A stretch of DNA of 64,000 nucleotides from Apostichopus japonicus (Eukaryota > Echinodermata > Holothuroidea > Aspidochirotida > Stichopodidae): positions 22,350,960 to 22,414,959 of the forward strand of contig NC_092563.1 in assembly GCF_037975245.1 (NCBI RefSeq), in the 5' to 3' direction. A model generated the notes under the pieces. That model was not told where the DNA came from, did no database searches, and saw nothing but the letters and a program-made list of their open reading frames with translations. Below are positions 201 to 55,774 of the stretch, one piece after another. Within the stretch, counting starts at the first letter, position 1; the number at the start of each line of letters is the position of its first letter. Position numbers and translations under genes: made by a program.

Positions 201-442
<242 letters not shown>

Positions 443-629
443 TCAAGTCTGGGCTAAACAAAAAAATCCCCTCAATTTAGAAAAGGCAGCTTTCTGATGT
501 CTATAACCACAAACAGAGGTGGAATTCTTTCCTCATTAGAGGTGCAGTAATGTGGTTGTGGTTGTCATAAACTAGAAGAGCTTCTTCAACTGTGGCAGGA
601 CAGAGCTAAGAAGGTAATCACATCACTCA

Positions 630-1573
<944 letters not shown>

Positions 1574-1579
1574 CCTTAC

Positions 1580-1995
1580 TACGGAGAGCCAAACGTTCCA
1601 TAAATGTCGAAAAAGAAAGTGAAGTGTCCAAGTTAATATATATATGTCCAAATCGATATCAACATGTTACAATTCGATATCAGCATGTTACAATTCCATA
1701 TGAACATGTCGAAACAAAATACAATATGCCATTGCGTCTATCAACATGTCAAATTCAACATCAGCATGTCGAAAACTTGTAACAGCATGCCATTACTACA
1801 TTGGTCATGTCAACATGCTATATTTACGTCGTGCTATAATTTTGGCACTTCGGCGCGCGCCAACGTTTCGTATATGTCGAGATTTATTTCAGTATGTCCA
1901 AAACTTGTGTCAGCATGGTGAGCGAAGAGTAGTGAAGTATTGCCATGACAACGTTGCACATGGTTCGTGTCGTTGACACGGTACTATGGTTGAAT
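1580..1995 (+). repeat. left terminal inverted repeat of the 6.4-kb element
   Basis: Inverted partner of 7556-7971. Both contain the same short open frames (85 aa, read + here and - there), which shows the two arms have hardly diverged. Confidence 0.9.
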
Positions 1996-2450
1996 ATACT
2001 GTAGCGGAAAGCTACGACTTTTCCTTAGTGCGATACGTTTCGTTCCCTCAGGGGTTACATCTGTTGCGCTCCGCGAAGGTAACGAGAGATGTTTATCCGA
2101 AACAGGAACAGGAACTGATTACGTAATTTTGCTATATCGATGTATTCCCGTGACTGGCATAGGCAGGCACGGCGGTGGGTGTGTGAGTCGATCCCATTGG
2201 TCGCAACTCATCGTAGTTATATACAGGTAGTCCATGATTGGTCTAAGCCTTTTTTTACAGTTTATGTACGGACGTGTGTATACGGGGGTTATTTCCGGGG
2301 TATTTTAATGAAGGGTTCTTTCGTAAATGAGTGAGTCAGAGAGCCGGAGAGTCGGTCGAGTGCAAGACGAGGAACTTTCCTTCCGGCGGCTCGTGGTAAA
2401 GCCTTTGATATTTGCCTAAGTCCAAACAAATGTGTTTAGGCATTTTAGAG

Positions 2451-2610
2451 TGCCCGACACCTGCGCTGCCCGAGTCCAGCGGATTGCCCGACACCTGCCC
2501 TGCCCGAGTCCAGCGGATTGCCCGACACCTGCCCTGCCCGAGTCAAGCGGAATGCCCGAAGCCTGTACTGCCCGACACCGGTGGATTGCCGACGTTTAGA
2601 CTGCCCGACC
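2451..2610 (+). repeat. 34-bp GC-rich tandem repeat
   Basis: About four to five head-to-tail copies of a 34-bp unit beginning TGCCCGACACCTGC and containing CTGCCCGAGTCCAGCGGAT, decaying toward the right. It is much more GC-rich than its surroundings and lies inside the 6.4-kb element. A proline-rich open frame across it is a by-product of the repeat. Confidence 0.85.
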
Positions 2611-3889
2611 CTTGCGCAGCCCCAGTGTTATGCCTGCGTATCCTTGGGTTGTGCCCGACCCCAGTACGTTATATTGGGCAAATGTTAATATTGTGTATTA
2701 TACGCTGTAGATGTAGAACGAGATGAGAAATTATACTTTTATTAAACATACAACTCTGGTGTCTGCCTCCTAATTTAGAGTTAATAATCTGTACCCGTCC
2801 CCCATCTACCTCCCCTACCCTCCTCCAGTTGGTTTCGAGACAGGTTTTACACTACCAGACGTTGGCGGCGTTACAATACGTTTTAAACTGCTGCAGTAGG
2901 TGGAAAATATACCATTGAGAATATCTTCAAGCCCTTATTCGTATTAGTCGCGCCAAAGCTTTGTCCAAACAAAGCAGTTCATTTAATATAATCATTCATA
3001 ATGAATGTTTTGCAAGAAACTTTTTCTTCCATACCGCGTTTGGTTGGAGAAATAAACCAATGCGTCAGAGAAAACCAGCTTTCGATAGCACCACGCCTCC
3101 GAACTCGTCTAGAGGCAACGTTAGAAAAAAGAGTATGTATACCCTAACTTTAGCCTTAGTCTAGGCATTGCCTAACTTAGCATAGGCTAAATACAAGTAG
3201 AACTTAGTTGAAGTAAATCCCAAAGACAGAGCACGGACTGGATCAAAGGGAGAAAGGGGCCTAGTGAAATTTCCCCAAGAATATTCTTACAAACTTTTAA
3301 TTTATTACCATGTTACTGTTAGTGTCCGCGTCCAATGACTCACGAATGGATCAACAAGGCATGTGGCGGCGTGTTTATCGGCAAATTTGAATGTAGCCTA
3401 TGCTGAAATTGTAATTTGAGAAAAGGGGAACAGACTGACCAGAGAACGGATGTGTACGGTGTATTTAGCATCGATGGAACTGGAAAGTAGCAGTTTTGTG
3501 GTATAGTTAACTAGCCTGTCAACTCCTCACCCTTGTCGGTATCGATGCCGAACGTCCAGGCCGACTTTGTTCAACGCAAATTCTTACTCTGATGGTACGT
3601 GGGATGGTGTGCAAAGGTCCGGCAAATATTATCTCGCACAAAGTCATCAACGTGATCCCTTTGGCTTGAATATTTTATTTCCTTCTCTCAACATGCTGAC
3701 ACAAGTTTTGGATATACTGTCTAACTTTTTCACTTTATGTATGGAACAATTTTTCAGTACATTTCCATGTGAAGTAACAGATTTTTTTTCGTGGAACTGG
3801 TAAATTGTAATAATGAGTTAATGTTCTATAGATTTTTCAAAATCTTTTGCATAAATGTTTTCTTTGATTAATACAGTACCAGGGACATA

Positions 3890-4188
3890 GCCAGGTTTCT
3901 GGTATGGGGTGGGGGGCAAAGTCAAACTTCTGTCCCCATTTTCAGGCACTAAGCGGTGGAACAACGTCCTGGGGAGGGTATAAGGGGCATCCTCCTCCCC
4001 TGAAAAATGTTGTTTAAAAAAGGGCTTAAGATGCAAAGGGGTTGTTGCCGTTTCCATTCTTTGAACTGAATTTGTGTACTAAGAGGAGTACATTTAAATA
4101 TTTTTTGCTCCCTATGATTTGTCACCGTCGCCACTCACGTCCCCAAAAAATTCTGGGGGGAACTCGCCCCACACTGTCTACGTCACTG
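3890..4188. mobile_element. hAT-type MITE, 299 bp
   Basis: Begins CAGGGACATAGCC, ends CTACGTCACTG, and is flanked by a perfect 8-bp duplication TACAGTAC (3882-3889 and 4189-4196). No coding capacity. Nested in the 6.4-kb element. Confidence 0.85.
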
Positions 4189-4632
4189 TACAGTACTGTA
4201 AATGAACTCAAACTGATTTGATTGTTCTGTATAGCACTACAGTAGATTTATTTCACAGTATTTTAATGTTTTATTTGTACCTTTGTTGTACTAGTACTTA
4301 AAGTGGGGATTTCTGTTAGAAGAACATTGTCATTTGTCCATGTGCTCTAGATTTTTTTTTGGTGGAACTAGTACAGTATATTTAAATAACAATGTGGTGA
4401 TTTGATCTTGTATAGTTTTCATGTTATCTTGTGAAGTAGTTTTATTTTCCTGTTTAGTACAATATATACAGTAAAGGAACTCCAACTTGCTGTTCTTTTT
4501 TTTGCCAGCTCTCATAAATGAAGGGAAAGGTGCCCTTATAATCATATGCATAACATTGAATAGTCAAGTTGTCAACCAAAGTGTAGTGGTCAAGCGACTT
4601 GAAGGGATGCCATCCTGGCTGTTACTAATGGT

Positions 4633-5001
4633 CAGTGGCGTAGGAAGGTACTTTTGAGTGGGGGGGCTGAAGACTGATGGCCGGCCTGGGGGAGGGGTCT
4701 AAGGGGAGGGGGTACCCTTCTCCCCTTTGGAATTTTTTGCATTTCCAGGTGGCCTCAGATGCAATTTGGTGCAATATGACACACTTCAACACCCACTCCA
4801 TTTTGTAAACTTAATTTTGTATTTTCACCTGGCCTTAAATGCAATTTGGTGCTCCAAATGAGATTTTTTTTCTCATTTGGAAATGAAGAAGGGGTTTTCT
4901 GACTTGCGGAGCGGGGGGCGGAATGATACTTCCGCCCCTCCACATTTTTCACTGGGGGGCTGGCGCCCCCAGCCCCCCCCCCCCCGGTTCCTACGCCCTT
5001 G
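4633..5001 (+). mobile_element. hAT-type MITE, GGCGTAGGAA family, copy 1
   Basis: A 369-bp element starting CAGTGGCGTAGGAAGG and ending CCTACGCCCTTG, with 8-bp duplications CTAATGGT at 4625-4632 and 5002-5009. The interior has G-rich and C-rich blocks and the words GATGGCCGGCCTGG and AATTTGGTGC. Other copies are at 15663-16032, 43187-43547 and 59506-59857. Confidence 0.9.
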
Positions 5002-5009
5002 CTAATGGT

Positions 5010-7555
5010 TACATTGTGCCCATTGGGGATTAAAATCACATTTTGTGCTCGAATTATGTCCATATAAGTAAACTCATGTAGCTAAATATATTTTAATTTT
5101 GCTGGCACAAGGCCTAGGAAGATAGTTGGGTGGGAGGGGGGTTAGTGGGTGTCTGAAGGAGTGAAGATGGGTCAAGAGAAGGAGCCAGTTTGATGGTATT
5201 GATGGTGAGTTTATGGAGCTCCAAATGCCAAAGGTAGTATGAGGGTTTTACTTTTGAGAGATAGGGAGTTCGGCATCTGCAAAAGTTGTGGGAAGGATTC
5301 TAAATGCTGGTGAGGATATTGGGGGTGTAGAGAAGATTAAGCTTTGCCAACAGAAAGAAAGCGATGAAATCTTCCATGCTGAGCTAAAGTGCTTCTTTCA
5401 AGAGGGTGTAAATATTGCGAAGGTGAGTTTTGTGGTTGTCACTGTGGCGATGCTGCCATTGTCCAATTTAGAGCGGATGGTGTCCTACCTACCAGACCTA
5501 CTGTAGGTGGTGTTGAAGAGAAAGCATGTGTCACCTTTGACCTTCATCAATAAAATTTACAAGGAAACAAATCACAACAAAGTTTAAACTTTAAATTTGT
5601 ACAAAACTGACAATATTCTAGTTCCACAATATTTCTCTGAACTAAAGTAAACTTGTTATAAGCTTGAAAGATGAGGTTTGCCATGGAAAGAACAAACGAA
5701 CTATGTAAGTATACAACATAATTATCATAAAATCAAGATATATAGATACCAATCATGTTACTCTCAGTTTCACTCCTTGCTTTCACTTGCCAATTCTTTT
5801 CTGAATGCTTTCTCTCCTTTCTTGCTACAAGAAGTCTTCCTTTTTGTAACTTATCTCCATTTACATTCTAACAAAAGTATTTACTATTAACTTTACCCAA
5901 TAAACAACAAACGTATGAAATTTGAAGCAACTGCCCACTTAAGTCCTCGTTTAACAAGATCCGCCCACCGATTCTGAACTGGCATGTGTTGCAGAACTTT
6001 TTGCAGAAGATGGTCTCTCACATATTTATTTCTCAAAATAAGCAAGGTCTTCATGTTTAAAATTTGCTTTGTCTGAAATTCCAGTCTTGAAAAGCATGAA
6101 AATATTATTATTAACTAAGATTAATCCACCTCTGTTTTGTTTTTCCACCCAGGCTTTACTGTAATCTAAAAAACTGTGACCTTCACCTGCAACAGACATA
6201 CATATAGTAAAGGCTTCATAATTGACGCACCCCCGTAATTGACGCACCTTCAATTATTACTAGCAACGATACAGCAGGCCACCTTAACTTTTTTGCAGTC
6301 AAGCAGAATGACATATTTCATGAGTTTGAATCCATTTCAGCTTTTTGCTGACCAAATTGTGGTATTTTTTAAGCTATTAACACCCTCCCACCAGTTTTGC
6401 ACATTTTTTGGTCATTTGGAAATCTTACTTCCTAAAAATAACCAACATTACCTCAATATGATAACACTGCTCTCTGGAACCTGACCAGTCTGAGCTTAGA
6501 CGCTCAGAGCATAGCAAACAGCATCTAAAGTCAATGGATGTATACTAAGGCCTACACTACAGTTAGTTTTACAACGAATGTGTCAATTTAGGGGTATGAA
6601 AGAACTTGACACTGCAGACATTTTGTGGTCAAATTCTGCTCAATTGTACGGTGCATAAGCACAGAACCTTAAATATTTTGAGATCATAACATTTCTAAGG
6701 AACTACACATATGAAAATCACATACAGTCGAGTGATTTGGATTTTTCCTTGATAGATATCGTTGATCAAATCCTTAAGTGCGTCAATTATGAGCCCACCA
6801 TGCTACTGTAAAAATATTAAAGCATTCTGAGTACTCTTAACTTTCATGTAACGTTTTTTAAGGGCAAATGGCACATAACCTGCTAATTATCTTAGAATTT
6901 GTTCCTCATGTTTTTCAACAATTAATGTATCTTCCAAATTTATGTCGTCTGGAACATCCAGCCTCTCAAACTCTTCAATCATCAGCTTCACCATAAATTC
7001 AACTATATCCTGTAGCATGAACATTTCTAATGTCCTCGGCGGATGCAAAGTTTTTTGGCAGCCATGTTTCGTGTTAAATTAATTTTGTTAATTTTATAAC
7101 ACCAATGCAATAACAAACAGCACTAACGTTATGTGCCTAACGAACGAAGAAAAGTTTTATCGGAAAATACTTGACTAAAAGTACCTATTTCGCCATTACT
7201 TGTTCATATATTGCGATAAAATATATGCTGAGATAAACAATTAATTATTAAATACGAATCTTCGCATGATTCGGTGAGAAATGAAAGATATATTCCGATC
7301 GAAATTCTTACAGGTATGCGTAACGTAACATATATGAGTACTGTGTATACTATTTCAATACATATACGTTAGGATCGGAGTGTCTGTTGTTATATATGCT
7401 ATATACGAAATGACCTTTGTACCAGGATTACGTAATAGCTGATGATGGCTTTACCCGTGTTTGTGCCCTGAGGCATGTTTACTTATGGCGATCAAATTTT
7501 GTCGGTTACAATGATACTTCAAAGTGGGTTTTCTCCTTCTGTTTATAGCTCCATG
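5010..7555. other. non-coding interior of the 6.4-kb element
   Basis: AT-rich sequence with scattered stops in all frames. A TTGACGCAC word near 6240 recurs inverted at 6780. No protein domain recognised. Confidence 0.5.
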
Positions 7556-7971
7556 ATTCAACCATAGTACCGTGTGAACGACACGAACCATGTGCAACGT
7601 TGTCATGGCAATACTTCACTACTCTTCGCTCACCATGCTGACACAAGTTTTGGACATACTGAAATAAATCTCGACATATACGAAACGTTGGCGCGCGCCG
7701 AAGTGCCAAAATTATAGCACGACGTAAATATAGCATGTTGACATGACCAATGTAGTAATGGCATGCTGTTACAAGTTTTCGACATGCTGATGTTGAATTT
7801 GACATGTTGATAGACGCAATGGCATATTGTATTTTGTTTCGACATGTTCATATGGAATTGTAACATGCTGATATCGAATTGTAACATGTTGATATCGATT
7901 TGGACATATATATATTAACTTGGACACTTCACTTTCTTTTTCGACATTTATGGAACGTTTGGCTCTCCGTA
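7556..7971 (-). repeat. right terminal inverted repeat of the 6.4-kb element
   Basis: Inverted partner of 1580-1995, ending GGCTCTCCGTA next to the second CCTTAC copy. Confidence 0.9.
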
Positions 7972-8427
7972 CCTTACCCCATTCACAAAATATCCACCAT
8001 GTCTGACCCTGTTAATGGGAGTTACTGCTGTGTTTAAGATTTTGGTTTTTGGCCTCTTACTGACCTTTGGTGACCTTCACAGGCACCAAAACAAAAGGGT
8101 CTTCCTCTCGCTATGAGTTATCCATCCACCAAGTTTGATCATGATACATCATTTCCTTATTGAGATATCATGTACACAAGCCAAGCGTCACATACACACA
8201 CACACGTCAAGTTGAATGCATAGGTTCCTTGCTTTCCAAAAAGCAAGGAACCAAAAATTACTTACTTCTACTCTAAATTACACCAAATTCAGTGCATTTC
8301 CCATCAATTCCACAAATTTTTGGTCACTGGTCAATTTAACAAAACCTACTTTGTAATTCTCTTCTTTTTGGAACAATTTTTAAAATGTGACACAGCAAAC
8401 TACATTCAACTGTTTCATATAGCTCAC

Positions 8428-8523
8428 CTCAATAAGCTCGGCACATTCTGTGGTGGTTTTTACATCAAAGCTGATATCAACCCGAATCTGAGTGAAGGCA
8501 TCTGTCAGTTTTACGATGGGCAC
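8428..8523 (-). CDS. TENT4: TENT4-like copy A, catalytic exon (third aspartate)
   Basis: A 96-nt, 32-codon exon between a TATAAAG acceptor and a GAG|GTGAGC donor, phase 0 at both ends. It encodes VPIVKLTDAFTQIRVDISFD followed by an acidic helix ending ELIE. The aspartate in RVDISF matches the third metal-binding residue of the family (human KVDISF). It joins directly to the exon at 9931-10051 (DKAT|VPI) and to 702-842 (ELIE|NFI). The intron downstream is 7.6 kb because a 6.4-kb inverted-repeat element sits inside it. Confidence 0.9.
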
Positions 8524-8689
8524 CTTTATAGAAAAAAAAAATATATTAAAATAATCCAAACTCAAATAATAATTTATGACTTCATCACTTCATCAGATTG
8601 GGAAATGGGCTTAAGGTAGTGAGTTTACTATAAAACTCTGACATTGCTCATGGCAGAAATGTTGGCATCTCTCCTGTGGCCTCCTACTG

Positions 8690-9930
8690 TACAAGTAGTG
8701 GATGTTATAGAAGCATCCAGAGTTTGTCAGAAGCCATGATTCCATGGCTAATAGGTAATAAATGTGAAAAACTGGATAAACAAAATCCATGTCACAAATA
8801 TACATGTTTGAAATTTGGAGAGAGAATGAGGAGGACGAGGCTGTTAACAGGTTACCAGATCAGTCTACATACAGGAAAAGGGTGTGGGGGGTGAGGCATC
8901 TGTGGTTGTGAGGAGGGGGATGAGAAGGCTGTGGTTGTGAGGAGGGGGGTGAGAGGGCTGTGGTTGTGAGGGTGTCCACAGAACTCTATGCTACCTAATT
9001 CCTAATGTTATAAAATTGCCTTTGCAGGACCTCACATGTTCGTACTGTTACAAACTTCTGGAGGGCGTGTGGTAAGTATCAAATGTCATTCTCTTCCAAC
9101 CTATAAAGCAGATATGAATACGCTTTGGTGAAGTGTTGTTTTGTATTTTTAGGTTATCTATCATTAATTAATATGAAAACTTCTGGACAATACTTTTAAA
9201 TATTAAGTGAGGAATGTCAGGCATCCTTAAACATTCTTTAACAAAATCCCAAACTGAAGTATCACTGTATTCATATGTTCCTTGTCCTCATGGTGCAAGA
9301 TAGCTAGGCAGTGGCCATTATGACAACTTTAACAAGTAGCTCAGTGCAGACCCTGGGATCCAAAACCTTTGGACACTATGTTCATACTTCACTCATACCA
9401 GAAAGGCATAAGTCAGCTTATACACTAATCACTGTACAATACACTACACTGTTTCTTATCACTTGACCAGATAACTTGTGGATTTATGCAAGGCAATACT
9501 AACCTGCCTCCCCAGCCTGCCTATCCCCTTTCCTATTTATCTAGACTACATGTTTGGAACATTTAATCACTGCCCCTCCCCTCCCCCTCCTCCACTTCTG
9601 GTACACTACCCACGTTAACTTCCTTATAGATCAACCATTCAAAGAAGCAACTACGTGAAATTCATTTTTCTCTCCACGTTGCCCTTTGGTGATTGTTTCT
9701 TACCAAATAGTGTGACCCATTAGCAGAGTGGACGGCTTCTAATGGACTTAGATAAACTTGGATAGTCTATAGAAATACTAGACAGATGACTAAACAGGGT
9801 TTGTTGATTGCAACAACATTTACTCTCACTATTTAATACAGTTTTCTTTCCCTTCAGAGTTGTGCACATTTCAACAAACACAGACATATATGACCAGAAG
9901 AAGGTATTTCCTGACAATAATTGGACTTAC
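8690..9930. other. intron of TENT4 copy A
   Basis: AT-rich intron with a short G-rich direct repeat (GTGGTTGTGAGGAGGGGG, copies around 8903-8965) and pyrimidine-rich patches. No exon seen. Confidence 0.45.
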
Positions 9931-10051
9931 AGTGGCTTTATCCAGTACTTTAATGGTCCCTTGTGAAGGGAGTGCACTGTTCTTTAGCTCCTCTCCGAGG
10001 TGACAGCAGGGATTGTCTCCTAGATCCCCGAAAACGACAAGGTCGATATCA
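9931..10051 (-). CDS. TENT4: TENT4-like (PAPD5/PAPD7) poly(A) polymerase, copy A, catalytic exon 1 of those visible
   Basis: Non-canonical poly(A) polymerase of the Trf4/PAPD5/PAPD7 family, which in other animals adds A-tails to nuclear RNAs (TRAMP-like) and mixed tails to mRNAs. This exon begins with an AG acceptor in phase 2, ends with GTAAGT, and encodes SDIDLVVFG, the nucleotidyltransferase signature carrying the first two catalytic aspartates, then a segment ending KVLDKAT, as in vertebrate TENT4. The other visible exons continue it collinearly toward the left edge (8428-8523, 702-842, 201-391), with phases that fit. The preceding exon (the GSFxTGL helix region) was not found between here and the paraplegin exons at 13.3 kb. 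The C-terminal exons would lie left of base 1. Identification is strong; whether this copy is functional is doubtful (see the exon at 201-391). Confidence 0.88.
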
Positions 10052-11020: not shown

Positions 11021-11745
11021 CAAAGTATGCCCCATTTCCTATAGCATGGTCCAAACTCATATAATGCTCCATTTCCCATAACATGGTCCATCTCAATAGT
11101 ATGCTCCATTCCCCATAGCATGGTCCAAACTCATATAATGCTCCGTTCCCTATAGCATGGTCAATACTCATAAAATGCTCCATTCCCCATAGCATGATCC
11201 ACCTCAATAGTAAACTCCATTCCCCATAGCATGGTCCATACTCATATAATGCTCCATTCCCTATAGCACAGTCCATCCCCATATAATGCTCCATTCCAAA
11301 TAGCATGGTCCATCTCAATAGTATGCTCCATTCCCTATAGCATGGTCTATACTCATATAATGCTCCATTCCCCATAGCATTGTCCATCTCAATAGTATGC
11401 TCCATTCCCTATAGCATGGTCTATACTCATATCATGCTCCATTCCCTATAGCATGGTCCATACTCATATAATGTTCCATTCCCCATAGCATTGTCCATCT
11501 CAATAGTATGCTCCATTCCCTATAGCATGGTCTCTGCTCATATCATGCTCCATTCCCTATAGCATGGTCCATACTCATATAATGCTCCATCGCCCATAGC
11601 ATGGTCCATCTCTGTAGTATGCTCCATTCCCCACATCATGGTCCATCTCAATAGTAAGCTCCATATCCCATAGCATGGTCCATACTCATATAATGCTCCA
11701 TTTCCTATAGCATGGTCCATCCAAATAGTTTGTTCCATTCCCCAT
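11020..11745. repeat. 37-bp tandem satellite, block 1 (about 20 units)
   Basis: Head-to-tail units of the type ATGCTCCATTCCCCATAGCA + TGGTCCATCCCAATAGT. Each unit is itself two related halves of 18-19 bp (GCTCCATTCC... and GGTCCATCCC...). Units differ by a few substitutions. Read on the minus strand the unit has no stop in any frame, giving long artificial open frames with a 37-residue period. Confidence 0.95.
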
Positions 11746-11747
11746 AT

Positions 11748-11975
11748 GACTGACGGTTGTTAACCGACTTACCATGTGCTTTAATGTCAGATAGTGGCAG
11801 AAACTGCCAGTGCCCCCCCCCCCCCCCCTTGCTTCTTCTCTCCACTCACAAACAGCAAAATCCACAGGCATTTAGCATTAATAGCCCAAAGACTTAAGCC
11901 TGCACAGCATAATATACAATAGTTGAAAACAAAGCTTCCCTTCAATATTATGCTCCATTCACTCAAAGTATGACC
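11748..11975 (+). repeat. satellite leader, copy 2
   Basis: Diverged direct repeat of 10845-11020, with an added poly-C run and a short insertion. It again ends AACAAAGCTTCCCTT followed by the satellite. Leader plus array was therefore duplicated as one unit. Confidence 0.8.
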
Positions 11976-13255
11976 CATTCCCTATAGCATGGTCCATCAC
12001 CATATCATGCTCCATTCCCCATAGCATGGTCCACCCCAATAGTATGCTCCATTCCCTAAAGCATAGTCCATCCCCATAGTATGCTCCATTCCCCACAGAA
12101 TGGTCCATCACCATATAATGATCCATTCCCCATAGCATGGTCCATCTCAATGGTATGCTCCATTCCCCATAGCATGGTCCACCCCAATAGTATGCTCCAT
12201 TCCCTATACCATGATCCAAACTCATATAATGATGCATTCCCCATAGCATGGTCCATATCAATGGTATGCTCCATTCCCCATAGCATGGTCCAAACACATA
12301 TAATTCTCCATTCCCCATAACATGGTCCATCCCAATAGTATGCTCCATTCCCTATAGCATGGTCCTTCCCAATAGTATACTCCATTCCCCATAGCATGGT
12401 CCATCCCAATAGTATGTTCCATTCCCCAAAGCATGCTCCATCCTAATAGTATGCTCCATTCCCTATAGCATGGTCCATCCCAATAGTATGCTCCACTCCC
12501 CACAGAATGGTCCATCCCAATAGTATGCTCCATTCCCCATGCCATGGTCCATCACCATATGATGCTCCATTCCCTATAACATGGTCCATCTCAATGGTAT
12601 GCTCCATTCTCTATAGAATGGTCCATACTCATATATAATGCTCTATTCCCCATAGCATGGTCCATCCCTCAAACTATGACTCACTCCCAATAGTATGCTC
12701 GATTCCCTATAGCATGGTCCTTCCCAATAGTATGCTCCATTCCCTATAGCATGGTCCATCCCAATAGTATGCTCCATTCCCCACAGAATGGTCCATCCCA
12801 TTAGTATGCTCCATTCCCCATGCCATGGTCCATCACCATATGATGCTCCATTCCCTATAACATGGTCCATCTCAATGGTATGCTCCATTCTCTATAGAAT
12901 GGTCCATACTCATATAATGCTGTATTCCCCATAGCATGGTCCATCCCTTAAACTATGCCTCACTCCCAACAGTATGCTTCATTCCTCAAAGTATGCTCCA
13001 TAACCCTATAGCATGGTCCATACTCATATAATGCTCCATTCCCCATAGCATGGTCCATCACCATATAATGCTCCATTCCCCATAGCATGGTCCATCTCAA
13101 ATGTATGCTCCATTCCCCATATCATAATCCATCCCTCAAACTATGACTCGTTCCCAATAATATGCTCCATTCCCCATAGCATTCTCAACTTCTCATACCA
13201 TTGCCCATCTCCCATAATATGCTCTGTTCCCCAAAGTATACTCAACAGTCAATAC
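11975..13255. repeat. 37-bp tandem satellite, block 2 (about 35 units)
   Basis: Same unit as block 1, longer, with local higher-order duplication: the stretch around 12540-12680 is repeated at 12825-12950. It ends at a degenerate edge just before the last visible paraplegin exon. Confidence 0.95.
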
Positions 13256-13290: not shown

Positions 13291-13407
13291 CTCTCTACCA
13301 AACACGATGGCACCATCATGCAAGAACACATGGACAACGTCAGATTCTGGATTGGATGCCTCACCACTTCCATCAGAATCGTAGTATGTGACAGACAGAC
13401 CTTTGAC
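13291..13407 (-). CDS. SPG7: paraplegin exon 5, FtsH extracellular domain; last exon visible
   Basis: A 39-codon phase-0 exon. It reads VKGLSVTYYD, a small acidic insert, then NPESDVVHVFLHDGAIVFGR, matching human PESDVVEVYLHPGAVVFGR. The donor is GAG|GTGAGA. The next expected exon (the MYRMQVANID region) is not in the 3.2 kb before TENT4 exon 9931-10051; that space is taken by the 37-bp satellite. Confidence 0.93.
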
Positions 13408-14084: not shown

Positions 14085-14237
14085 CTCTCCTTTGGCTAAC
14101 ATGTCATTAATAAATGTCTGCCAGGAGATTTTCTGGGCATCATCTCCCTTCGAGAGCATGTTCAGCAACGTGGTTATAAGGAGGAGCATTAGCAACATTC
14201 GGATATTATCACTGTCCAAACTTCCCCCTCTGAGGAT
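14085..14237 (-). CDS. SPG7: paraplegin exon 4, transmembrane segment and start of FtsH_ext
   Basis: A 51-codon exon in phase 0 (ATACAG| acceptor, GAG|GTGAAA donor). It contains a hydrophobic helix MLLMLLLITTLLNML and then ISWQTFINDMLAKGE, very close to human paraplegin ISWNDFVHEMLAKGE. The helix is the first inner-membrane anchor; the rest starts the intermembrane-space domain. Confidence 0.9.
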
Positions 14238-15611: not shown

Positions 15612-16101
15612 CATTTATGCCCAGAATATTTTTCAAACTGGTATTGCTCAAATTAGATCTTTCAAGGGCGTAGGAACCGGGGGGGCTGGGGGGCGCCAGC
15701 CCCCCCAGTGAAAAATGTGGAGGGGCGGAAGTATCATTCCGCCCCCCCCCCCCGGTTCGCAGGTCAGAAAACCCCTTTTTCATTTCCAAATGAGAAAAAA
15801 AATCTCATTTGGACCACCAAATTGCATCTAAGACCAGGTGAAAATACAAAATTAAGTTTACAAAATGGAGTGGGTGTTGAAGTGTGCTATATTGCACCAA
15901 ATTGCATCTGAGGCCACCTGGAAATGCAGAAATTCCAAAGGGGAGGGGGACACCACCTCCCCTTAGACCCCTCCCCCAGGCCGGCCATCAGTCTTCAGCC
16001 CCCCCACTCAAAAGTACCTTCCTACGCCACTGAGATCTTTGTATTATTCTTTGTAAAGCATTGAACTCTCTCCTTCTTTGGGTGCTCCAATGTGATGAAA
16101 C
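15612..16101 (-). pseudogene. SPG7: paraplegin exon 2, split by a MITE
   Basis: The acceptor TTCTCAG at 16102 and donor GTAAGT after 15612 bound an exon that is 112 nt without its insertion. It reads VSSHWSTQRRREFNALQRII, then QRSNLSNTSLKNILGIN in one frame. This resembles the paraplegin stretch before its acidic linker (human ...[20 protein letters not shown]). At AGATCTTT a 370-bp hAT-type MITE has inserted. Insert plus duplicated target is 378 nt, a multiple of three, but the MITE has an in-frame stop after about 11 codons. As sequenced, translation would end there unless the MITE is spliced out. Confidence 0.72.
15663..16032 (-). mobile_element. hAT-type MITE, GGCGTAGGAA family, copy 2, inside a paraplegin exon
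   Basis: A 370-bp element in inverse orientation (starts CAAGGGCGTAGGAACC, ends CCTACGCCACTG) with perfect 8-bp duplications AGATCTTT at 15655-15662 and 16033-16040. It is highly similar to the copies at 4.6, 43.2 and 59.5 kb, which implies fairly recent insertion. Confidence 0.92.
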
Positions 16102-17568: not shown

Positions 17569-17913
17569 CATTGCCAAGTTGAACATCTTCTGACACACAT
17601 AACTTCTGACTTGGTTCCTTGCTCTGCCTTGTATTGCCGAACATGTGCTGAACACCGATGATTGCAAGTGATGACAGTTTGTGTTGTACTTTGAATTATT
17701 AAGTTGCGATACTTTGTACTGGTTATTTGCACAACTTGCACTAGACCTTTCATTCCATACGTTATGCGCGGTTCTCACAGGTTTCGCTAAACTAGTACAC
17801 GTTGATTTCTTTCGAGCAGAAACTTTCTTACGGTTTTCTCTAACGATTATTTTTCCTCCCAATTTCTTCGACCACTCTCTTTTGGTTGAAATTAAACGAA
17901 TAACTCCACTCAT
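17569..17913 (-). CDS. SPG7: paraplegin (SPG7 m-AAA protease), exon 1 with mitochondrial leader
   Basis: Paraplegin is a subunit of the m-AAA protease of the mitochondrial inner membrane, which degrades misfolded membrane proteins and processes substrates. This 115-codon first exon starts at ATG 17913 (MSGVIRLISTKREWSKKLGG) and ends at CAATG|GTATGC in phase 0. It is rich in Arg/Lys/Ser and poor in acidic residues, as expected for a matrix-targeting leader. By itself it has no diagnostic motif. The assignment rests on strand, phase and collinearity with exons 15612-16101, 14923-15011, 14085-14237 and 13291-13407, which give about 272 residues ending in the FtsH extracellular domain. The AAA ATPase and M41 protease exons, about two thirds of a usual paraplegin, are not in the window. 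Confidence 0.65.
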
Positions 17914-28200: not shown

Positions 28201-28439
28201 ATGTGCTAAATAGTTACCGTTACAATTACGTGAGTGATTGCATTGACCCTAACTACACGACCGGTGTGAAGTTAGATACTTATTCCCCGTTCCTCGTTCG
28301 ACATTCGCGAATGAGTAACTGCCACCGATTCAGTTACGTATTCGACAATGGTATCGACGTAACACCTCTGGCATGACGTAAGCTTTCTTACAAGATGTTA
28401 AACATTTGGTCGTGGTAAAAGGTTTATCTATGGGTCATA

Positions 28440-29530
28440 TACTCTAATGAATATTTAGAAGGATACCATGATGCATCTTTTCCGGTCCGAATAGTTCTTG
28501 ACCAACTAAAATGACCAGTACTTCATCAGTTTCTAAATTAATGTAACGGGACCTGAAAAAAACACTCTAGGCCCTAATCAAGACTAGCACGCCTTGGACC
28601 ACCTAAACAATGGGTCATAGGAATTCTTAACACATTGAAGAAGGATACCATAATGCGTCTTGACCGGTCCAAAGCGTGCTTGACCAATTAAAATGACCGC
28701 TAAATCAACAATTTTTTAAATAAATGTAACAGGAACTGAAATAAAAACATTTGGGCCCTAATCAAAACCAGCACGCCTTGGACCGCCCAACCAATGGGTC
28801 GTATGAACTCTTAAGTCATTGTAGAAGTGTACCATAATGCGTCTTGCCCGGTCCAAAGAGGGCTTGACCATATTAAATGACCACTAAATCATTACTTCTT
28901 TCATGAGTGCAACGGGACCATGAAAAAGCTTTGGGCCCTTATCCATGCAGCACGCCTTGGATCACCAAACCGATGGTTAACATGAATTCCAAGGACATTA
29001 TAGAAGAGTACCATAATGCGCCTTGCCAGGTCCAGTGTTCTTGACCAATTAAACTGACCACTAAATCATCAATACGTTAATGTATGTAAATGGACCTGCA
29101 AAAATCTTTAGGCCCCAGTCAAGACCAGCACGCCTTGGACCACCTAACCAATTAGCCATAGGAAGTCAAAGGACATTGTAGAAGGGTACCATAATGCGTC
29201 TTGCCCGGTCCAAAGCGTGCTTAACCAATTTAAATGACCATTAAATCATTACTTTTTTAATGACTGAAAAGGGACCACGCAAAAGCTTTGGGCCCTAATC
29301 CATGCAGCACGCCTTGGATCACCAAACCGATGGTTAACATGAACTCTAAGGACATTGTAGAAGAGAACCATAATGCGCCTTGCCCGGTCCAAAGAGTCCT
29401 TGACCAATTAAACTGAACACTAAATCATCAATACGTTAATGTATGTAAATGGACCTGCAAAAATCTTTAGGCACATATCAAGGCTAGCACGCCTTGGACC
29501 ACTGAACCGTTGGGTCATATGAATTCTTAT
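28440..29530 (+). repeat. subterminal tandem array, left arm (about 6 units of 180 bp)
   Basis: Each unit contains GCACGCCTTGGACCACC, ACCATAATGCGTCTTGCCCG, GTCCAAAG and TTGACCAATTAAA...TGACCACTAAATCAT. Units differ by about 10-15%. Confidence 0.9.
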
Positions 29531-29534
29531 TTAT

Positions 29535-31080
29535 GGCTGCATGCAGGGACGTGGCTAAGTCCAGATGATTGGGGGGGGGGGTGTAGTGGCTGAAATTCCA
29601 ACTGGATGGGTTTTGGAGCCGGAAAATTCCGACTGCTGCCTTGTAACCCCCCACCCCCCCCCCCTCCCAGCACTTCTCGACAACGATACGGTCACTTTCA
29701 GTAAGGCACCCTATCTTTCGCGACTGCACTTTTGTTCCGAACTTTTTTTCGGTACTGTTGTTACCACTTGCCCTCACTTCACAAAGTTATTAATCACTCT
29801 GGTTAAGCGAGTAAGCAACTGAGTATAAGTTATCTGCTTGATAGGCTACATAGACTACTAACTACAAAAGCTATGTTAATGTAACAAAGAGGAAAACAAC
29901 AAATTTTCAACAAATTATATTCGATGACATAGTGAAATTACCCCAAAATACAGTGCTTTCTCCTAGGGCGCTTAATATTATTTTCTTGGGGATGGGGGGG
30001 GGGGGGGGAGGGGTGAGACTGTTTATCACTCACATGAGAAAAGGATTTGGATTTAGAGCATTTGGAATGAAGTGAACAATTAAAAATTTTGCAGAAAAAT
30101 GTTGAGTTGACGAGATACGATAAGTTGTCAATTAAACATTTTGCCCAAAAAATATTTCAATTGCTCAGTTGGAATGAAGTGAACAATTGAACATTTTGCC
30201 AAAAAATGTCCATTTGACGAGATAAGGTAAGTTGTCAATTAAACATTTTGCAGAAAACTTTTGCTCAATTAAAGCAACTGAGCATTCCAACATTTTTCTG
30301 TTTTTGATAAGATTTTATCTTGTACTCTACACAATTTACTGAAAAATTTCACCTTATATGGCAGTGTTTCTTATGTTGATGGCACTTTTAAACTTCCGTA
30401 GATTAGCATTGAGTGTTTTTATTGTGTACGATGTACTGTAGTTCTATTAAGCATTTTTTTACAGTATTCAAAATCGTACGAAGTTTTGTATGGTGGAGTA
30501 TAAGAATCACGAGATACAATTTCTCAATGTGACAAGGAAAACGTGATAAATATGACTGATTAAAGGTCAATTTTGACCGAAAATTTAGTTCGCTCACAAA
30601 TTACAAGAATATATGAAAATTAGAGTGCGACAGTCGGAAAAATTAGAGTGCGACAATCGGAAAAATTAGAGTGCGACAGTCGGAAAATTCCGATTGTCGC
30701 ACTCAAATTTTACAACTATCGTCAGTTTTACCAAGATTGGGGGGTGAGACACTGTAGGAAAGCTTTTACAATTTTAGAACGTTACCTCTAAATGACTTCC
30801 GAATTCATTGATATGTCAGCATTTATAACACTTTCACTTGCGCAAATCACTTACGAAATTTCAGGCCTAATCAAATAGGAAAATTGCAATGTGGGAGTTA
30901 TTTGAACACAGTGGCATAAAGCGACAGCATCTTTCCAGGGCTAAAGCAAGGCTGTAACAGGCTTGTAGCAGGCTTGTAACATGCTTGTGGCAGGCTTGTG
31001 GCAGGCTTGTAGCAGGCATGCACTGTCATAAAAGCTCAACTGAAGCTTACAGCCGGACAAACAATCAAAGTAATGAACAA
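29535..31080. other. core of the foldback element, left part
   Basis: Contains a hAT-like terminus fragment (GGGACGTGGCTAAG near 29548) followed by G/C runs, a motif repeated three to four times around 30120-30260 (AATTAAACATTTTGCC), a triple repeat of AATTAGAGTGCGACAGTCGG (30618-30700), and a short series of GGCTTGTAGCA units (30950-31015). No gene. Confidence 0.6.
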
Positions 31081-31090
31081 TCCCCTAGGC

Positions 31091-32183
31091 CAGTGGCGGC
31101 GGAACCGGGGGGCTTGGGGGGCTCAGCCCCCCCAATGAAAAAGTTGAGGGGGCAAATGCATGATAAGCCCCCCCCCCCCCCAATATTTACCAAGGCTCCG
31201 AAACGTGCATCTGCCCATTTTTTCAATGCATACTTGTCGATCTGTCCGATGCACACGTATACTATATAGGTGTAATAATTTTAGTAATTGCTGGGGGACC
31301 CTCGGCCCGTCCCCTGGCTATAGACCACATTGTCACCCCAACCGCGTCTTCACGCCCCGTGAAAAGTGGAAGCAGTGAGTGTGAGTACCAGTAAGCGTAA
31401 CACAACTTCGTCTTAGGCCAATGACTTGCCTCATTTCAGACAGTTTTCCAACATCCCCTTACTTAGTGGCGGAGCGTCCATATATACAGTCAGGGGGCGG
31501 ATGCCCCCCCCTGACAGACTCAAATGGACTGCTGGCGCCCTTTTCAGCTTTTCACTATACTTCTTACTTATTCGCTATTATTGACTATTTTATTGCGCTC
31601 TCATATACCTATTGACATTTGTCATATTCTCTTGGTGTAATTTTCCGACAAAATGGCGACGACACCTATTTATTCTCCGTTTATCTGCAAATTAGCAAGG
31701 CCCGGAAAGGGTCATTTCCTGCAATCTAGGGAGTATCTTTACTCAAAATTTTCTGTACGCTCCGCGCCAACATGTGGTGGCGCTCCGCTTAGATAGTGTC
31801 GAAAGCGCCCCTACAGACCATTCTTGCCCCCCCCCCCCGACCACGCGGAATACCCCTAGTTCCGCCACTGCCCTTACTACACTAAAAAATGTCTTTGCGA
31901 GTACACTACGAGTATAATTCTCTTAAAACACCATCGAATATACAAATTTCAATGTTTTTACAGACTTTTACGTGCAATCTGAGAAATTGCAGACTTGAGA
32001 CACATATTTTAGGGCTAGGTATTCGCAGCATAAAACACACGGGAAGTGCCGTTTCCGGCCATCTGGAGGTTTGATATAACCCAAAATTTTCTTGTACGCT
32101 CCGCGCCAACCGATGGTGGCGCTCCGCTTAGATAGTCTCCACACATTAGCCCCCCCAATAATTTTTCCGTTCCGCCGCGCCTG
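31091..32183. mobile_element. hAT-type element with a nested MITE
   Basis: Starts CAGTGGCGGCGGAACCGG, ends TTCCGCCGCGCCTG, and is flanked by 8-bp duplications CCCTAGGC (31083-31090, 32184-32191). After removing the nested MITE at 31464-31870 it is about 680 bp. It carries the module TACGCTCCGCGCCAAC...GGTGGCGCTCCGCTTAGATA near 32090, shared with 31750, 37500 and 39330. Confidence 0.88.
31464..31870. mobile_element. nested hAT-type MITE, 407 bp
   Basis: Begins TAGTGGCGGAGCG, ends TTCCGCCACTG, with 8-bp duplications CCCTTACT (31456-31463, 31871-31878). It lies wholly inside the element at 31091-32183, so it inserted later. Confidence 0.88.
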
Positions 32184-32194
32184 CCCTAGGCCTA

Positions 32195-34100
32195 CCACTT
32201 AATGGCACATGCAGTAACGTTCAAACAAGGAACGAAGAAAATTGTGACTATTTCTGATATTTAATTCATTTGGGAATACAAATGCGAAAATGCAGTTAAA
32301 ATTTCATAATGCTGCAGTTTCTTTCATTTATCTATCACTTAAGAATGTTAATGGTTCGACACGAGGGAGCAATCACGCTATGATAAATATGAACTCTCGG
32401 TCTTTTAAAGGTAATTCCATGGACAAGGTAGGCAGTCAGTTCGTACATAGGTATCAATTAGTTCGAGCCTAATGGTCAAGCGCTCTTTAACGAGAGAAAA
32501 CTTCTAGGAAACATCCTGAATGAATTATTCAATCACAATCAGAACGCACGGTCCTTTGTTCCGCTCCTTCACATTTATCTTATGAAGTATTAAGTAATAT
32601 AGTGATATGGAACATCTTTGCACATAGATTGGTAAAATGTATCAATTGTACCAAATTAAAGTAATTTTGGCATGAAAATTTCTCTTCTAGGCCTACAAGT
32701 ACATCTCAATCCAACTAGAGAATAAATGAGGAGGGTGGGGGGGGGAGGGGTGGATATTAAGCATGTTACATATCTCCTGACTTCTATATTTCCATAATTG
32801 ACTCAGCATATAGCCTAATTTATATTAACCGAAGAATTAATACATTAAATACAATTGTAAGTGATTAGAAAAGTGTAATTTTGACTAAACGCGAAATTGC
32901 CCTAAAATCTGGCACTTTTGTTAATGGATTGAATATATCTTGTGTATTTAGTAAAATGTGTATAGCTAGATTATGGAAGTTATAATTAATATTTAGGTAA
33001 AACTGAATAAAAGGAAATTTGCTAAAAACTCACACTAACTCTGCATGGTCTATGTTTAGTTGGAATAAACCCAGTGAAACTTCTTATGGTCGATCTGCCT
33101 TCTATACACTTCAACGGAAACTCCAACGATTAACTGAAAAATGCATAGAATGGCAGTACATAGGGTAACTTGGATTGATTTATTACCAACTATGACTAAT
33201 GGAGATCATCAATAAATCAGAAAGGAACTTCGGCATAAAAAACATGTCTGGGTAGAACTATTTCACTTGAAGACTATTTTGCTAAATAAACTATTAAAGT
33301 ATGTTTATCTCCGCTTGACCCAAGATGACTGATTGCCTTAGTCAGCTCTATATGGAATGTAGCAGTGGAATCTTTCAGAACCTACGAAGGGGGGGGGTAA
33401 CAGCGTTCACAAACACTTTCATGGAGCGAGGCAAGAAAACTTCTCTGTTCTTTCAATCTGTAAATCTGTGACGTGTGAAACGAATAAAAGAAATGAAATT
33501 AAGTTCTATGAACGGATAATAAAAAAACGTTTTTCATTGCGTTGCCAGTCTTCATTAATCACTTCATTCTGAGATATGGAGTTGCGCTAAGGTGCGTGCA
33601 CGCCCCCCCCCCCCCCAAAAAAAAAGAGTGCGCGTGTGTTTCTCCTGGGTGGGAAGGAAACTTTGTATGCTGATGATCGTAAAGCACCAATTAGCATTAA
33701 TCTTGCGCGGCAAAGGTGTTGCTTTTGTTTTGTATTACCACCCTGGTACACACAAAGAGTAAAACTTCAAAAAAGAAAATATTGATGAATCTATTGGCAG
33801 AGATGAACGCAGAGACGTGATTCGTAGCCACAAAAACGACTAGTTGACTGAACTTTGTAGCGTTAAAAGAAGTACAAAACGATTCCAGAAGAGATTAAAT
33901 AGTCAAACACGTAACTGTAGTTTACTTCAAAAAACAATAAAAGTGTTTATTTAATCACTGCTTCTTATCGGGAGGTTTTCAGCATTGGAACATGTAGATG
34001 GGAACAAACATGACGAAATATCAATATGATATTTCGCAATCGTACAGCAGCACGTAAACAAAATATCTCCTTATAGGTTAGAGGACTTGCTTACTGTACA
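32195..34100. other. core of the foldback element, right part
   Basis: AT-rich. One plus-strand open stretch (about 33017-33170; SWNKPSETSYGRSAFYTLQR) has coding-like character but no recognised family. Poly-G and poly-C runs are near 32740, 33390 and 33605. Confidence 0.4.
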
Positions 34101-34106
34101 CTTATA

Positions 34107-34107
<1 letters not shown>

Positions 34108-34164
<57 letters not shown>
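34108..34164. repeat. (TA)n microsatellite
   Basis: Uninterrupted TA dinucleotide of about 55 bp. Confidence 0.95.
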
Positions 34165-34165
<1 letters not shown>

Positions 34166-34239
34166 GAGTTAAACAGATAAACAAAGTAGGTACATAAAAG
34201 AAAACAATAATAACAGTCCAGGCAAAAGTGGACTTTACC

Positions 34240-35660
34240 AACAGAATCTACTGAATAATGATTGTGCATTAGTCATTTGTATTAGTGAAGCACTCTTTGG
34301 ACCGGGTAAGACGCATAATGGTACCCCTCAACAATGTCAATAGAATTCATATGACCCATTAATTGGGTGGTCCAAGGCGTGCTGCATGGATTAGGGCCCA
34401 AAGCTTTTTCGTGGTCCCGTTTCAGTCATAGAAGAAGTAATGATTAAGTGATCATTTTAATTGGTCAAGCACTCTTTGGACCGGGCAAGACGCATTAGGG
34501 TACCTTTCAACAATGTCCTTGGACTTCCTATGACCCATTGTTTAGGTGGTCCAAGGCGGGCTGGTCTTGACTGGGCCTAAAGATTTTTGCAGGTCAATTT
34601 ACATACATTAACGTATTGATGATTTAGTGGTCAGTTTAATTGGTCAAGAACACTGGACCTGGCAAGGCGCATTATGGAACCCTTCTACATTGTCATTACC
34701 GTTCATATGACCCATTGGTTGGGTGGTCCAAGGCGTGCTGCATGGATAAGGACCCAAAGCTTTTTCGTGGTCCCGTTACACTCATTAAAGAAGTAAAGAT
34801 TTAATGGTCAGTTTAATTGGTCAAGCACTCTTTGGACCGGGCAAGACGCATTATGGTACCCTTCTACATTGCCATTCGAGTTCATGTTACCCATTGGTTT
34901 GGTGATCCAAGGCGTGCTGATCTTGACTGGGGCCTAAAGATGTTGGCAGATCCATTTACATTAATTAACGAAGTGATGATTTAGTGGTCAGTTTAATTGG
35001 TCAAGCACTCTTTGGACCGGGCAAGACGCATTATGGTACCCTTCTACATTGCCATTCGAAATCATGTTATCCATTGGTTTGGTGATCCAAGGCGTGCTGC
35101 ATGGATTAGGGACCAAATATTTTTCGTGGCCCCGTTTCACTCATTAAAGAAGTAATGATTTAGTGGTCATTTTAATTGGTCAAGCACTCTTTGGACCGGG
35201 CAAGACGAATTATGGTAGTCTTCTACAATGTCCTTAGAGTACATGTTACCCATAGGTTTGGTGATCCAAGGCGTGCTGCATGGATTAGGGCCCAAAGCTT
35301 CTTCGTGGACCCGTTACACTCATTAAAGAAGTAATGATTTAGTGGTCATTTAAATTGGTCAAGCACTCTTCGGACCGGGCAAGACGCATTATGATACTCT
35401 TCTACAATGTCCTTAAAGTTCATGTTACCCATCGGTTTCGTGATCCAAGGCGTGCTGCATGGATTAGGGCCCAAAGCTTTTTCATGGTTCCGTTACACTC
35501 ATTAAAACGGAACGATTTAATGGTCATTTTAATTGGTCAAGCACTCTTTGGACCGGGCAAGACGCATTATGGTACACTTCTACAATGTGTTAAGAATTCA
35601 TATGACCCATTGGTAAGGTGGTCCAAGGCTTGCTAGTCTTGATTAGGGCCTAAAGTAATT
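34240..35660 (-). repeat. subterminal tandem array, right arm (about 8 units of 180 bp)
   Basis: Inverted relatives of the 28440-29530 units (GGTCCAAGGCGTGCTGCATG, GGACCGGGCAAGACGCATTA). More units are kept here than in the left arm. Confidence 0.9.
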
Positions 35661-35703
35661 TTTTTACATTAATTTAAGAACTGATGAAGTAGGATGGTGA
35701 CTT

Positions 35704-36169
35704 CGAAGTTCGGCCACTTAAGACTTAAAACACCCCAAAACTAAATCTTCTGGTATAAATCATTTGAAAATATACTTCATATGGTGGGAGAATTTTGTTA
35801 TAGTACGATACACGGCCAAACTTTCTTTCCTGCAAACTGTTTTCACGTTGTTTTCCAAGAAGATTCTTCGTGATTGTGGAACTGGTATTTCTTGCTAGAG
35901 TATTGTGAAGTTCGGACGCGCAACCCACAGTGTGGCGCTGGTGATAAAATTGGTGGCGCAGTTGCTCTTTCAGTAATTATAACAGACTTCATAGATCTTC
36001 GTCATTTTGTTGACAAATTTGTAAGTAATTTCTTGCACACGGGTCATTTTGGAGAGAAAATAACTGTAGCTTCGTACTTTTTGGTGAAATTTGGCTCTTC
36101 CTGTAGTTTTTCATGGTGAAATCGTGTATTTCTTAGGGGTGGCTGATCTTCGCAGTATGCCGAACTTCG
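35704..36169. mobile_element. possible insertion with short inverted ends
   Basis: CGAAGTTCGGC at 35704 and its inverted copy at 36159-36169 bracket 466 bp that interrupt the right arm of the foldback element. No target duplication is evident, so this is tentative. Confidence 0.4.
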
Positions 36170-36473
36170 CACTACTGACTATACTAGTCATTTTAGTTGT
36201 CAAGAACTATTTGGACCGGGCAAGATGCATTATGTTACCCTTCTTCATAGTCATTAGAGTTCATATGACCCATGGGCCATAGATAAACCTCTTTCCACGA
36301 CCAAATGTTGAACATCTTGTAAGAAAGCTTTTGTCTTGCCAGAGGTGTTACGTCGATACCATTGTCGAATACGCAACTGAATAGGTAGCAGTTACTCATT
36401 CGCGAATGTCGAACGAGGAACGGGGAATAAGTATCTAACTTCACACCGGTACATATAGCCTATATCACTACGG

Positions 36474-43186: not shown

Positions 43187-43547
43187 CAGTGGCGTAGGAA
43201 GGTACCTTTGAGTGGGAGGGGGGGGGGGGGGCTGAAGACTGATGGCCGGCCTGGGGGAGGGGTCTAAGGGGAGGTTTTTTTTTCATTTCCAGGTGGCCTT
43301 AGATGCAATTTGGTGGAATATAGCACACTTCAACACCCACTCCACTTTGTAAACTTAAGTTTGTATTTTCACCTGGCCTTAGATGCAATTTGGTGCTCCA
43401 AATGAGATTTCTTTCTCATTTGGAAATGAAAAAGGGGTTTTCTGACTTGTGAAGCGGGGGGGGGGGGCGGAATGATACTTCCGCCCCTCCACATTTTTCA
43501 CTGGGGGGGGCTGGCGCCCCCCCAGCCCCCCGGTTCCTACGCCCTTG
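43187..43547 (+). mobile_element. hAT-type MITE, GGCGTAGGAA family, copy 3
   Basis: A 361-bp copy, CAGTGGCGTAGGAAGG to CCTACGCCCTTG. The flanking octamers (GGGGAGGC and ATAACATC) do not match, so the original duplication is lost or the copy arose by recombination. Confidence 0.85.
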
Positions 43548-49995: not shown

Positions 49996-50616
49996 ATGGC
50001 TCTAGCTATATGCAGGAACTGTCACATAAAGCTAAAGAGATACAGACTTGGTATAAGTCTGGTGAAATCCTTATCAACAACTTTAGGGAGACAGGTTCCA
50101 TCATCAAACAGCATAAATCAGTTTAAACAATGTCCACCTTTGAGCAGAATGCTCCTGCCATGGAGACATTATTCAGGTCAGCAAGGAGATGGAGGAGACC
50201 TCTTGTATAGAGGACAGAAAAAGAGTAGAACAAAACTACTTGCTCTGATGGAGGAGACAGATAAATCAGCATTGCAACTTGAGAAAGAAATCTTGGAGTT
50301 TGATGGATTGTCTAAAGCAAGTATCGCAGAATTGACTACGGAGAAACCGAGACGTGAGAAAATCAATCCCTCTCTTACTTCGGTCCTTCTCTTTCCAGGA
50401 CAGGGGAGCCAATATGTTGGTATGTGTGAGGCGTTCTTGAAGTACCCTAATGTGCAGGATATGTTTGAAGTTGCCTCAGAGATATTACAGTATGATTTGA
50501 AACAACTTTGTACCACTGGACCCAAAGAAGACCTGGATCAGACTATTTTCTGCCAATCTGCTGTCTTCTTGACATCACTGGCTGGGGTTGAGAAGCTAAG
50601 AGAAGAAAATCCAAAG
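49996..50616 (+). CDS. MCAT: mitochondrial malonyl-CoA:ACP transacylase (MCAT), exon 1
   Basis: MCAT transfers malonyl groups from malonyl-CoA to the mitochondrial acyl carrier protein, feeding the type II fatty-acid pathway that supplies lipoate precursors. The full gene is four exons (49996-50616, 52709-52796, 55327-55544, 56690-57079) joining in frame to 438 residues; human MCAT is 390. The start is ATG 49996: an in-frame TGA lies at 49984, and the N-terminus (MALAICRNCHIKLKRYRLGI) is basic, as a mitochondrial leader should be. Residues 135-139 are the conserved GQGSQ motif of acyltransferases. Collinear similarity to vertebrate MCAT continues to the exon end at AAG|GTCTGT. A perfect-looking GTAAGT lies 7 bp further on but would break the frame. 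An AG at 49928-49929 after a T-rich tract suggests an upstream non-coding exon. Confidence 0.96.
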
Positions 50617-50619
50617 GTC

Positions 50620-52700: not shown

Positions 52701-52708
52701 CAATACAG

Positions 52709-52796
52709 GCCATTGAGAATTGTGTAGCAGCTGCTGGGTTTAGCGTTGGAGAGTTTGCTGCTCTGGTATTTGCTGGTGCTTTGTCATTTGAAGATG
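52709..52796 (+). CDS. MCAT: MCAT exon 2, catalytic serine
   Basis: An 88-nt exon (AATACAG acceptor, GATG|GTCAGT donor) encoding AIENCVAAAGFSVGEFAALV and FAGALSFED. The GFSVGE motif carries the active-site serine, Ser219 in my numbering; vertebrate MCAT has the same GFSVGE rather than the GHSxGE of most acyltransferases. Confidence 0.97.
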
Positions 52797-55544: not shown

Positions 55545-55774
55545 GTTAAACATGTTTGAAATAGTTTGCATAAATTGTATTTGGGAACAATTTTGTATTC
55601 AGAGAGAGAATTTACTTAAGTAATGAACAATTTATGATGTTGATATGATGAACAAATAGTAATTGTTTTTTGTTTACAATTCTTGACAATTTCATGAATG
55701 TTTTTGGAATCAAACTAACTTTATAAGCTAACTAACTAACTGGAATCAAACTAACTTTATAGGATGTGAGTTAT

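Follow-up and report, generated by a model that had tools for sequence, protein, structure and literature searches.

What does it mean when a transposable element lies within a paraplegin exon: the loss of a working gene, an insertion into a pseudogene, or the birth of an intron? The question is raised by exon 2 of a paraplegin-like (SPG7) sequence in a stretch of 64,000 nucleotides (hereafter, the window; C3:22350960-22414959), for which the sequence-only reading had proposed all three options. From a search of the genome to which the window belongs (671,581,487 bases, 35 contigs), we consider it very probable that a MITE inserted in a 3'-truncated SPG7 pseudogene, one unit of an array of partial duplicates. 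The insertion, its target duplication, ten paralogous sites without the element, a single AAA exon, and a shared change in exon 4 were directly observed.

The element and the interrupted exon

The exon, the element, and the three other full copies of the element in the window are the following:

15612-16101, minus strand: paraplegin-like exon 2 with MITE, 490 nt (112 nt without the insert, phase 0 to 1)
15655-15662, no strand: target site duplication AGATCTTT, first of two; present once in empty paralogues
15663-16032, minus strand: hAT-like MITE, 370 bp, read on the minus strand as CAGTGGCGTAGGAA...TTCCTACGCCCTTG
16033-16040, no strand: target site duplication AGATCTTT, second of two; present once in empty paralogues
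4633-5001, plus strand: MITE copy 2, target duplication CTAATGGT
43187-43547, plus strand: MITE copy 3, without target duplication
59506-59857, plus strand: MITE copy 4, target duplication ACTGTCCT; empty paralogous site at C3:22041121-22041128

The 8-bp duplications flanking 15663-16032 are perfect, and the terminal inverted repeats of the 370-bp element (CAAGGGCGTAGGAA / CAGTGGCGTAGGAA, about 14-15 bp) match at 12 of 14 positions, in agreement with the earlier description of a hAT-type MITE in an exon with its target duplication intact. Exon 2 (16101-15612) is bounded by the acceptor TTCTCAG and the donor GTAAGT, and removal of 378 nt (the element plus one duplication) leaves 112 nt, entered in phase 0 and left in phase 1. 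The "37-codon exon" proposed before was thus right in its codons and in-phase splice sites and omitted the last base, the exon being 37 codons plus 1 nt. When the exon is left unspliced, the frame runs into a stop inside the MITE, located 376 nt short of the exon 2/3 junction, and the product has 152 residues, so the early in-frame stop was correctly called. The MITE-bearing exon also folds more stably than its shuffled versions (z -5.5; 0 of 100 shuffles as stable), an observation to which we attach no function.

The three other full copies in the window, all in the orientation opposite to that of the exon 2 element, matched it by BLAST with E values of 5.4e-155, 1.9e-154, and 1.6e-136, and pairwise identity among the four ranged from 94.2 to 96.9%. 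When the full elements of the window, a fetched 200 kb, and loci L002-L008 were taken together (15 elements of 352-375 bp), perfect 8-bp duplications were found in 13, a duplication with a single mismatch in one, and none around 43187-43547. The insert is therefore not a chance resemblance, since three more full copies are present in the window and 13 of the 15 elements have perfect duplications. Genome-wide, the search returned 2754 first-look candidates, and at least 42 matches at E<=0.001 came from the best 40 scored. The exon 2 element carries three private substitutions in 328 gapless columns compared with the other window copies and is 97-98% identical to the nearest copies outside the window; hence, its description as "young" is fair in a relative sense only.

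An 8-bp target duplication, short inverted repeats, and a short non-coding body with many similar copies, three features of MITEs of the hAT superfamily, were all found, and the element fits a hAT-type MITE, with the type of its transposase deduced from these features. Ac-type elements have the target consensus nTnnnnAn, and the 13 perfect duplications showed no clear fit either to it or to the Buster-type nnnTAnnn. The latter consensus is described in PMC3517528, which also gives 5-27 bp as the length of the inverted repeats in hAT elements. A scan of viral contigs with the 26-base end of the element found nothing. Elsewhere in the window, the stretch 31082-32187 is 97.7% identical to C3:21958452-21959551, and positions 31091-31104, near its start, resemble the MITE end (CAGTGGCGGCGGAA); this stretch may be a related, larger element.

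A truncated paraplegin copy and its neighbours

The remaining paraplegin exons and the neighbouring genes and repeats of the window are as follows:

17569-17913, minus strand: exon 1, with start codon, 115 codons
14928-15011, minus strand: exon 3, 84 nt, phase 1 to 1
14085-14237, minus strand: exon 4, 153 nt versus 152 in five of seven copies read; no in-frame join to exon 3
13291-13407, minus strand: exon 5, with no later paraplegin exon found in the window; PDB 9rk6_B (paraplegin) and Pfam FtsH_ext are matched by exons 4 and 5
11027-13182, no strand: 37-bp minisatellite separating the TENT4-like fragment from the paraplegin fragment
201-10051, minus strand: internal TENT4-like exons (10051-9931, 8523-8428, 842-702, 391-201)
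49996-57079, plus strand: MCAT-like gene (malonyl-CoA transacylase), four exons, phases compatible by eye; last exon duplicated along C3
62411-63723, minus strand: 3' exons of another TENT4-like copy (63723-63330, 62998-62411)

All exon boundaries given here are predicted from the sequence. Exons 4 and 5 matched paraplegin in PDB (9rk6_B, E 3.9e-8) and FtsH_ext in Pfam (E 8.3e-6), and tblastn of human SPG7 against the window matched these two exons only, with no significant AAA or M41 match. Exons 1-3, without a Pfam match above the cut-off, were identified by their splice sites and phase and by their order in the parent gene described below. The possibility that the flanks of the MITE are not paraplegin was rejected on the tblastn, Pfam, and PDB matches and on the parent gene, which holds exons 1-5 in order; the earlier assignment of the flanks to paraplegin is thereby confirmed.

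Exons 1, 3, and 5 of the window copy, as well as exon 2 without the insert, are each open; by this measure, the copy is not a heavily decayed pseudogene. Exon 4, in its 153-nt form, breaks the frame between exons 3 and 4. A read error was considered for this change in length and discarded, as the same form is present in the copy at 22.07 Mb; it is therefore inherited and not a one-off error. The AAA ATPase and M41 exons that follow exon 5 in a functional paraplegin were not found in the window, and because no AAA or peptidase exon follows, the copy cannot encode a working protease. The window as the site of a working gene was accordingly rejected: there is no AAA or M41 match in it, and the AAA exon lies elsewhere.

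Downstream of exon 5, on the same strand, come the minisatellite and then the internal TENT4-like exons. A fusion in which exon 5 reads into the TENT4-like exon was rejected because, after the phase 0 end of exon 5, the first codon of the next exon is TGA. The minisatellite (11027-13182), near the paraplegin/TENT4-like junction, shows higher-order periods of 74 and 111, and a related array is found in the 22.03-Mb unit (C3:22024243-22025112). The TENT4-like poly(A) polymerase was recognized by Pfam (MTPAP-like_central, E 4.4e-6) and by comparison with human TENT4B; its 3' exon gave no Pfam match above the cut-off. Exon 391-201 has 191 nt versus 193 in two other copies read, with a frame break, and the 5' exons of the fragment 10051-201 were not found in the window. 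The paraplegin-TENT4 order, together with the second TENT4-like 3' end in the window, suggested tandem duplication.

Two other repeats were noted in the window. A 6392-bp element (1580-7971), whose 416-bp inverted ends show 100% identity and which is flanked by a 6-bp target duplication (CCTTAC), is located in a TENT4-like intron and contains the MITE copy at 4633; its paralogous site at C3:22048598-22048614 is empty. In addition, a large inverted repeat occupies 28260-36450, with arms at 28.3-29.5 and 34.3-36.4 kb and tandem units of about 179 bp.

Paralogous copies and the complete gene

A genome-wide search with exon 2 without the insert found 11 copies, 10 of them whole (nine on C3 and one on C18) and that of the window alone split, matching the query at 1-69 and 62-112, with an overlap that is exactly the 8-bp duplication. 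Eight of the 11 were read in sequence, those at 22.129 Mb, 22.181 Mb, and C18 being known from the search rows alone, and among the seven read besides that of the window, the target site AAAGATCT is present once in six, with AAAGATAT in the other one. Comparison of the window with C3:21.9-22.1 Mb also showed the match breaking at 15662/16033 with 8 bp overlapping; two paralogues gave this pattern, and the parent gene is one of the two. A similar break with an 8-bp overlap was found for the MITE at 59506 at one place in 200 kb of the array.

Exon 1 gave 19 matches in the genome: 13 on C3 (21.96-22.37 Mb), whole or in pieces and on one strand, with the window and the parent included, and six on C13, C14, C15, and C18. 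The last MCAT exon was found at six places on C3, including the window, where it is open; one of the other five is partial. None of the query exons was found in the fetched loci L041 and L042. From these sequence matches, we take the window copy to be one unit of an array of about 400 kb of partial SPG7, TENT4-like, and MCAT duplicates, each unit of which would have originated by tandem duplication. The array spans C3:21.96-22.41 Mb, and the window is its right part. Among the titles listed by a literature search, none dealt with an array of paraplegin copies or with this MITE in a sea cucumber, and a search by name for splice variants of human SPG7 gave no useful paper.

The parent gene was found at C3:21961751-21937931. 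Its predicted exons 1-5 (351, 112, 84, 152, and 117 nt) are open with compatible phases, and its exon 2 is empty of the MITE. Nine tblastn segments, in order and each free of stops, correspond to human residues 212-248, 293-341, 341-417, 425-462, 464-521, 517-622, 621-646, 645-700, and 725-758; they cover parts of 212-758, with the AAA and M41 regions present. The AAA exon (ATP-binding motif, 231 nt), used as a stand-in for the unread exons after exon 5 in the copies at 22.10-22.35 Mb, was found once in the genome, at C3:21.94 Mb, within this gene. As the AAA exon was found only once and exon 2 of its gene is empty, the MITE-bearing copy does not represent, in the assembly examined, an allele of the complete gene. 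The window thus contains a truncated copy that carries disabling lesions and has a more complete parent along C3, as expected of a pseudogene by partial duplication, and the pseudogene option of the sequence-only reading is favoured: no paraplegin exon was found after exon 5 in the window, and the one gene found with an AAA exon has an empty exon 2.

Among eight copies compared from exon 2 to exon 3, differences are about 4-7%, except for the copies at 22.03 and 22.27 Mb, about 238 kb apart, which are 99.9% identical. These same two are the only ones open through exons 1-5 among the eight partial copies read, three of them in part only (21.98, 22.07, and 22.229 Mb); the other six, including that of the window, carry lesions. 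In the copy at 22.330 Mb, exon 1 extends past the match, so that its end is approximate. Exon 1 of the window is 99% identical to the 22.03/22.27 pair and its exon 2-3 stretch 94%, a mixed pattern suggestive of exchange between units. Few codon changes in exons 2, 3, and 5 are private to one copy, and their counts (non-synonymous/synonymous) do not set the window copy apart: 4/1 in the window, 2/1 in the parent, 3/1 at 22.295, 4/1 at 22.330, and 0/0 in the two near-identical copies. Transcription of the partial copies, or some function for them, is conceivable.

Origin and fate of the insertion

The proposed sequence of events begins with duplications of TENT4-MCAT-SPG7 along C3, from the complete SPG7 to the window, one unit of which would be the partial SPG7 copy. 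A hAT-type transposase would then have inserted the non-autonomous, hAT-like MITE at AAAGATCT, in exon 2 of that copy, and without a working protease to disrupt, the insertion would be close to neutral. If the copy were transcribed, the transcript would carry the premature stop after 152 residues and probably be removed by nonsense-mediated decay, or exon 2 would be skipped.

A loss-of-function allele of a working paraplegin gene, segregating in the population, would account for an exon 2 that is intact except for the insert and has good splice sites. We regard it as extremely unlikely, as the only AAA exon found belongs to a gene about 410 kb distant whose exon 2 is empty, the divergence between that gene and the window copy is about 7% from exon 2 to exon 3, and nine further exon 2 copies exist; this option of the earlier reading is not supported in the assembly examined. 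It is likewise very unlikely, if a shade less so, that haplotypes left uncollapsed in tandem created the array as an assembly artefact, making the MITE a haplotype difference of a single gene. Paralogue differences of about 4-7% are near what a very heterozygous marine animal could show, and the 99.9% identity of the 22.03/22.27 Mb pair over exons 2-3 would suit such an error. Against it, the exon 2 copies are 11 and not two, their pairwise divergences form a tree, they differ in lesions and in element insertions, and the AAA exon is present once and not twice. Moreover, according to PMC10344927, HiFi reads were used for the Apostichopus japonicus assembly published at 671.60 Mb in 34 scaffolds, which would also count against the artefact if the genome searched is that one.

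The birth of an intron, in which the MITE would be spliced out like an introner to give a usable mRNA, has a precedent in the introners described in PMC9860276, with target duplications and both splice sites within the element. Within the MITE, 15 nt from its 5' end, there is a weak donor, AAG|GTACTT, whose score of 1.05 lies between the extremes for the five donors of the gene (0.11 and 6.26); the element also has an acceptor, CATTTCCAG|GTG (score 2.59). However, when all GT and AG sites in the exon were paired at distances of at least 40 nt and scored with splice-site frequencies, this pair was not among the 11 that keep the frame free of stops. The best of these has a summed score of -3.1, and its acceptor, at -4.16, is weaker than every one of eight native acceptors (those of exons 2-5 and of four TENT4-like exons), the lowest of which scores -2.35. 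The target duplication has no GT, and no catalytic exon lies downstream in any case. With no good frame-preserving pair by splice-site scores, a new intron, as the earlier reading had allowed, is highly improbable.

Skipping of exon 2 would leave an open frame of 233 codons across exons 1-3-4-5: exon 3 has a second open frame, as in nine of the nine copies read, and the change in length of exon 4 brings that frame into register. This open frame is probably due to chance. One could imagine that the array yields truncated paraplegins acting as decoy or dominant-negative m-AAA subunits, with the targeting sequence, the first membrane segment, and the start of the intermembrane domain, and that the window copy joins them by skipping the MITE exon; we give this idea hardly any credence.

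The insertion of a MITE into a truncated SPG7 copy is, as a finding, ordinary: a common element in a duplicated, incomplete gene copy. Its value is that of a clear case, in which a single genome supplies ten empty paralogous sites, and of a warning that a transposon-disrupted exon should be taken as intron birth or gene loss only after its paralogues have been checked. Annotators of the Apostichopus japonicus genome may also find the array of partial SPG7-TENT4-MCAT copies of interest. Regarding paraplegin itself (SPG7, a subunit of the mitochondrial m-AAA protease), exons 4-5 are alike, whereas the window copy ends after exon 5. Among known elements, Mar, a hAT-superfamily MITE of Drosophila, resembles the present one as described in PMC3517528: it is short and non-coding, its short, imperfect inverted repeats begin with CAG, most copies have 8-bp target duplications, and copies lie in or near genes. 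Mar measures 610 bp versus 370 bp here, the likeness drawn here being one of description, and its targets fit the Buster-type nnnTAnnn, whereas the 13 perfect duplications found here, as a set, do not (PMC3517528). Finally, the introners presented in PMC9860276 share with this insertion a DNA element with inverted ends and a target duplication inside an exon; unlike them, the element described here has no strong frame-preserving splice pair.
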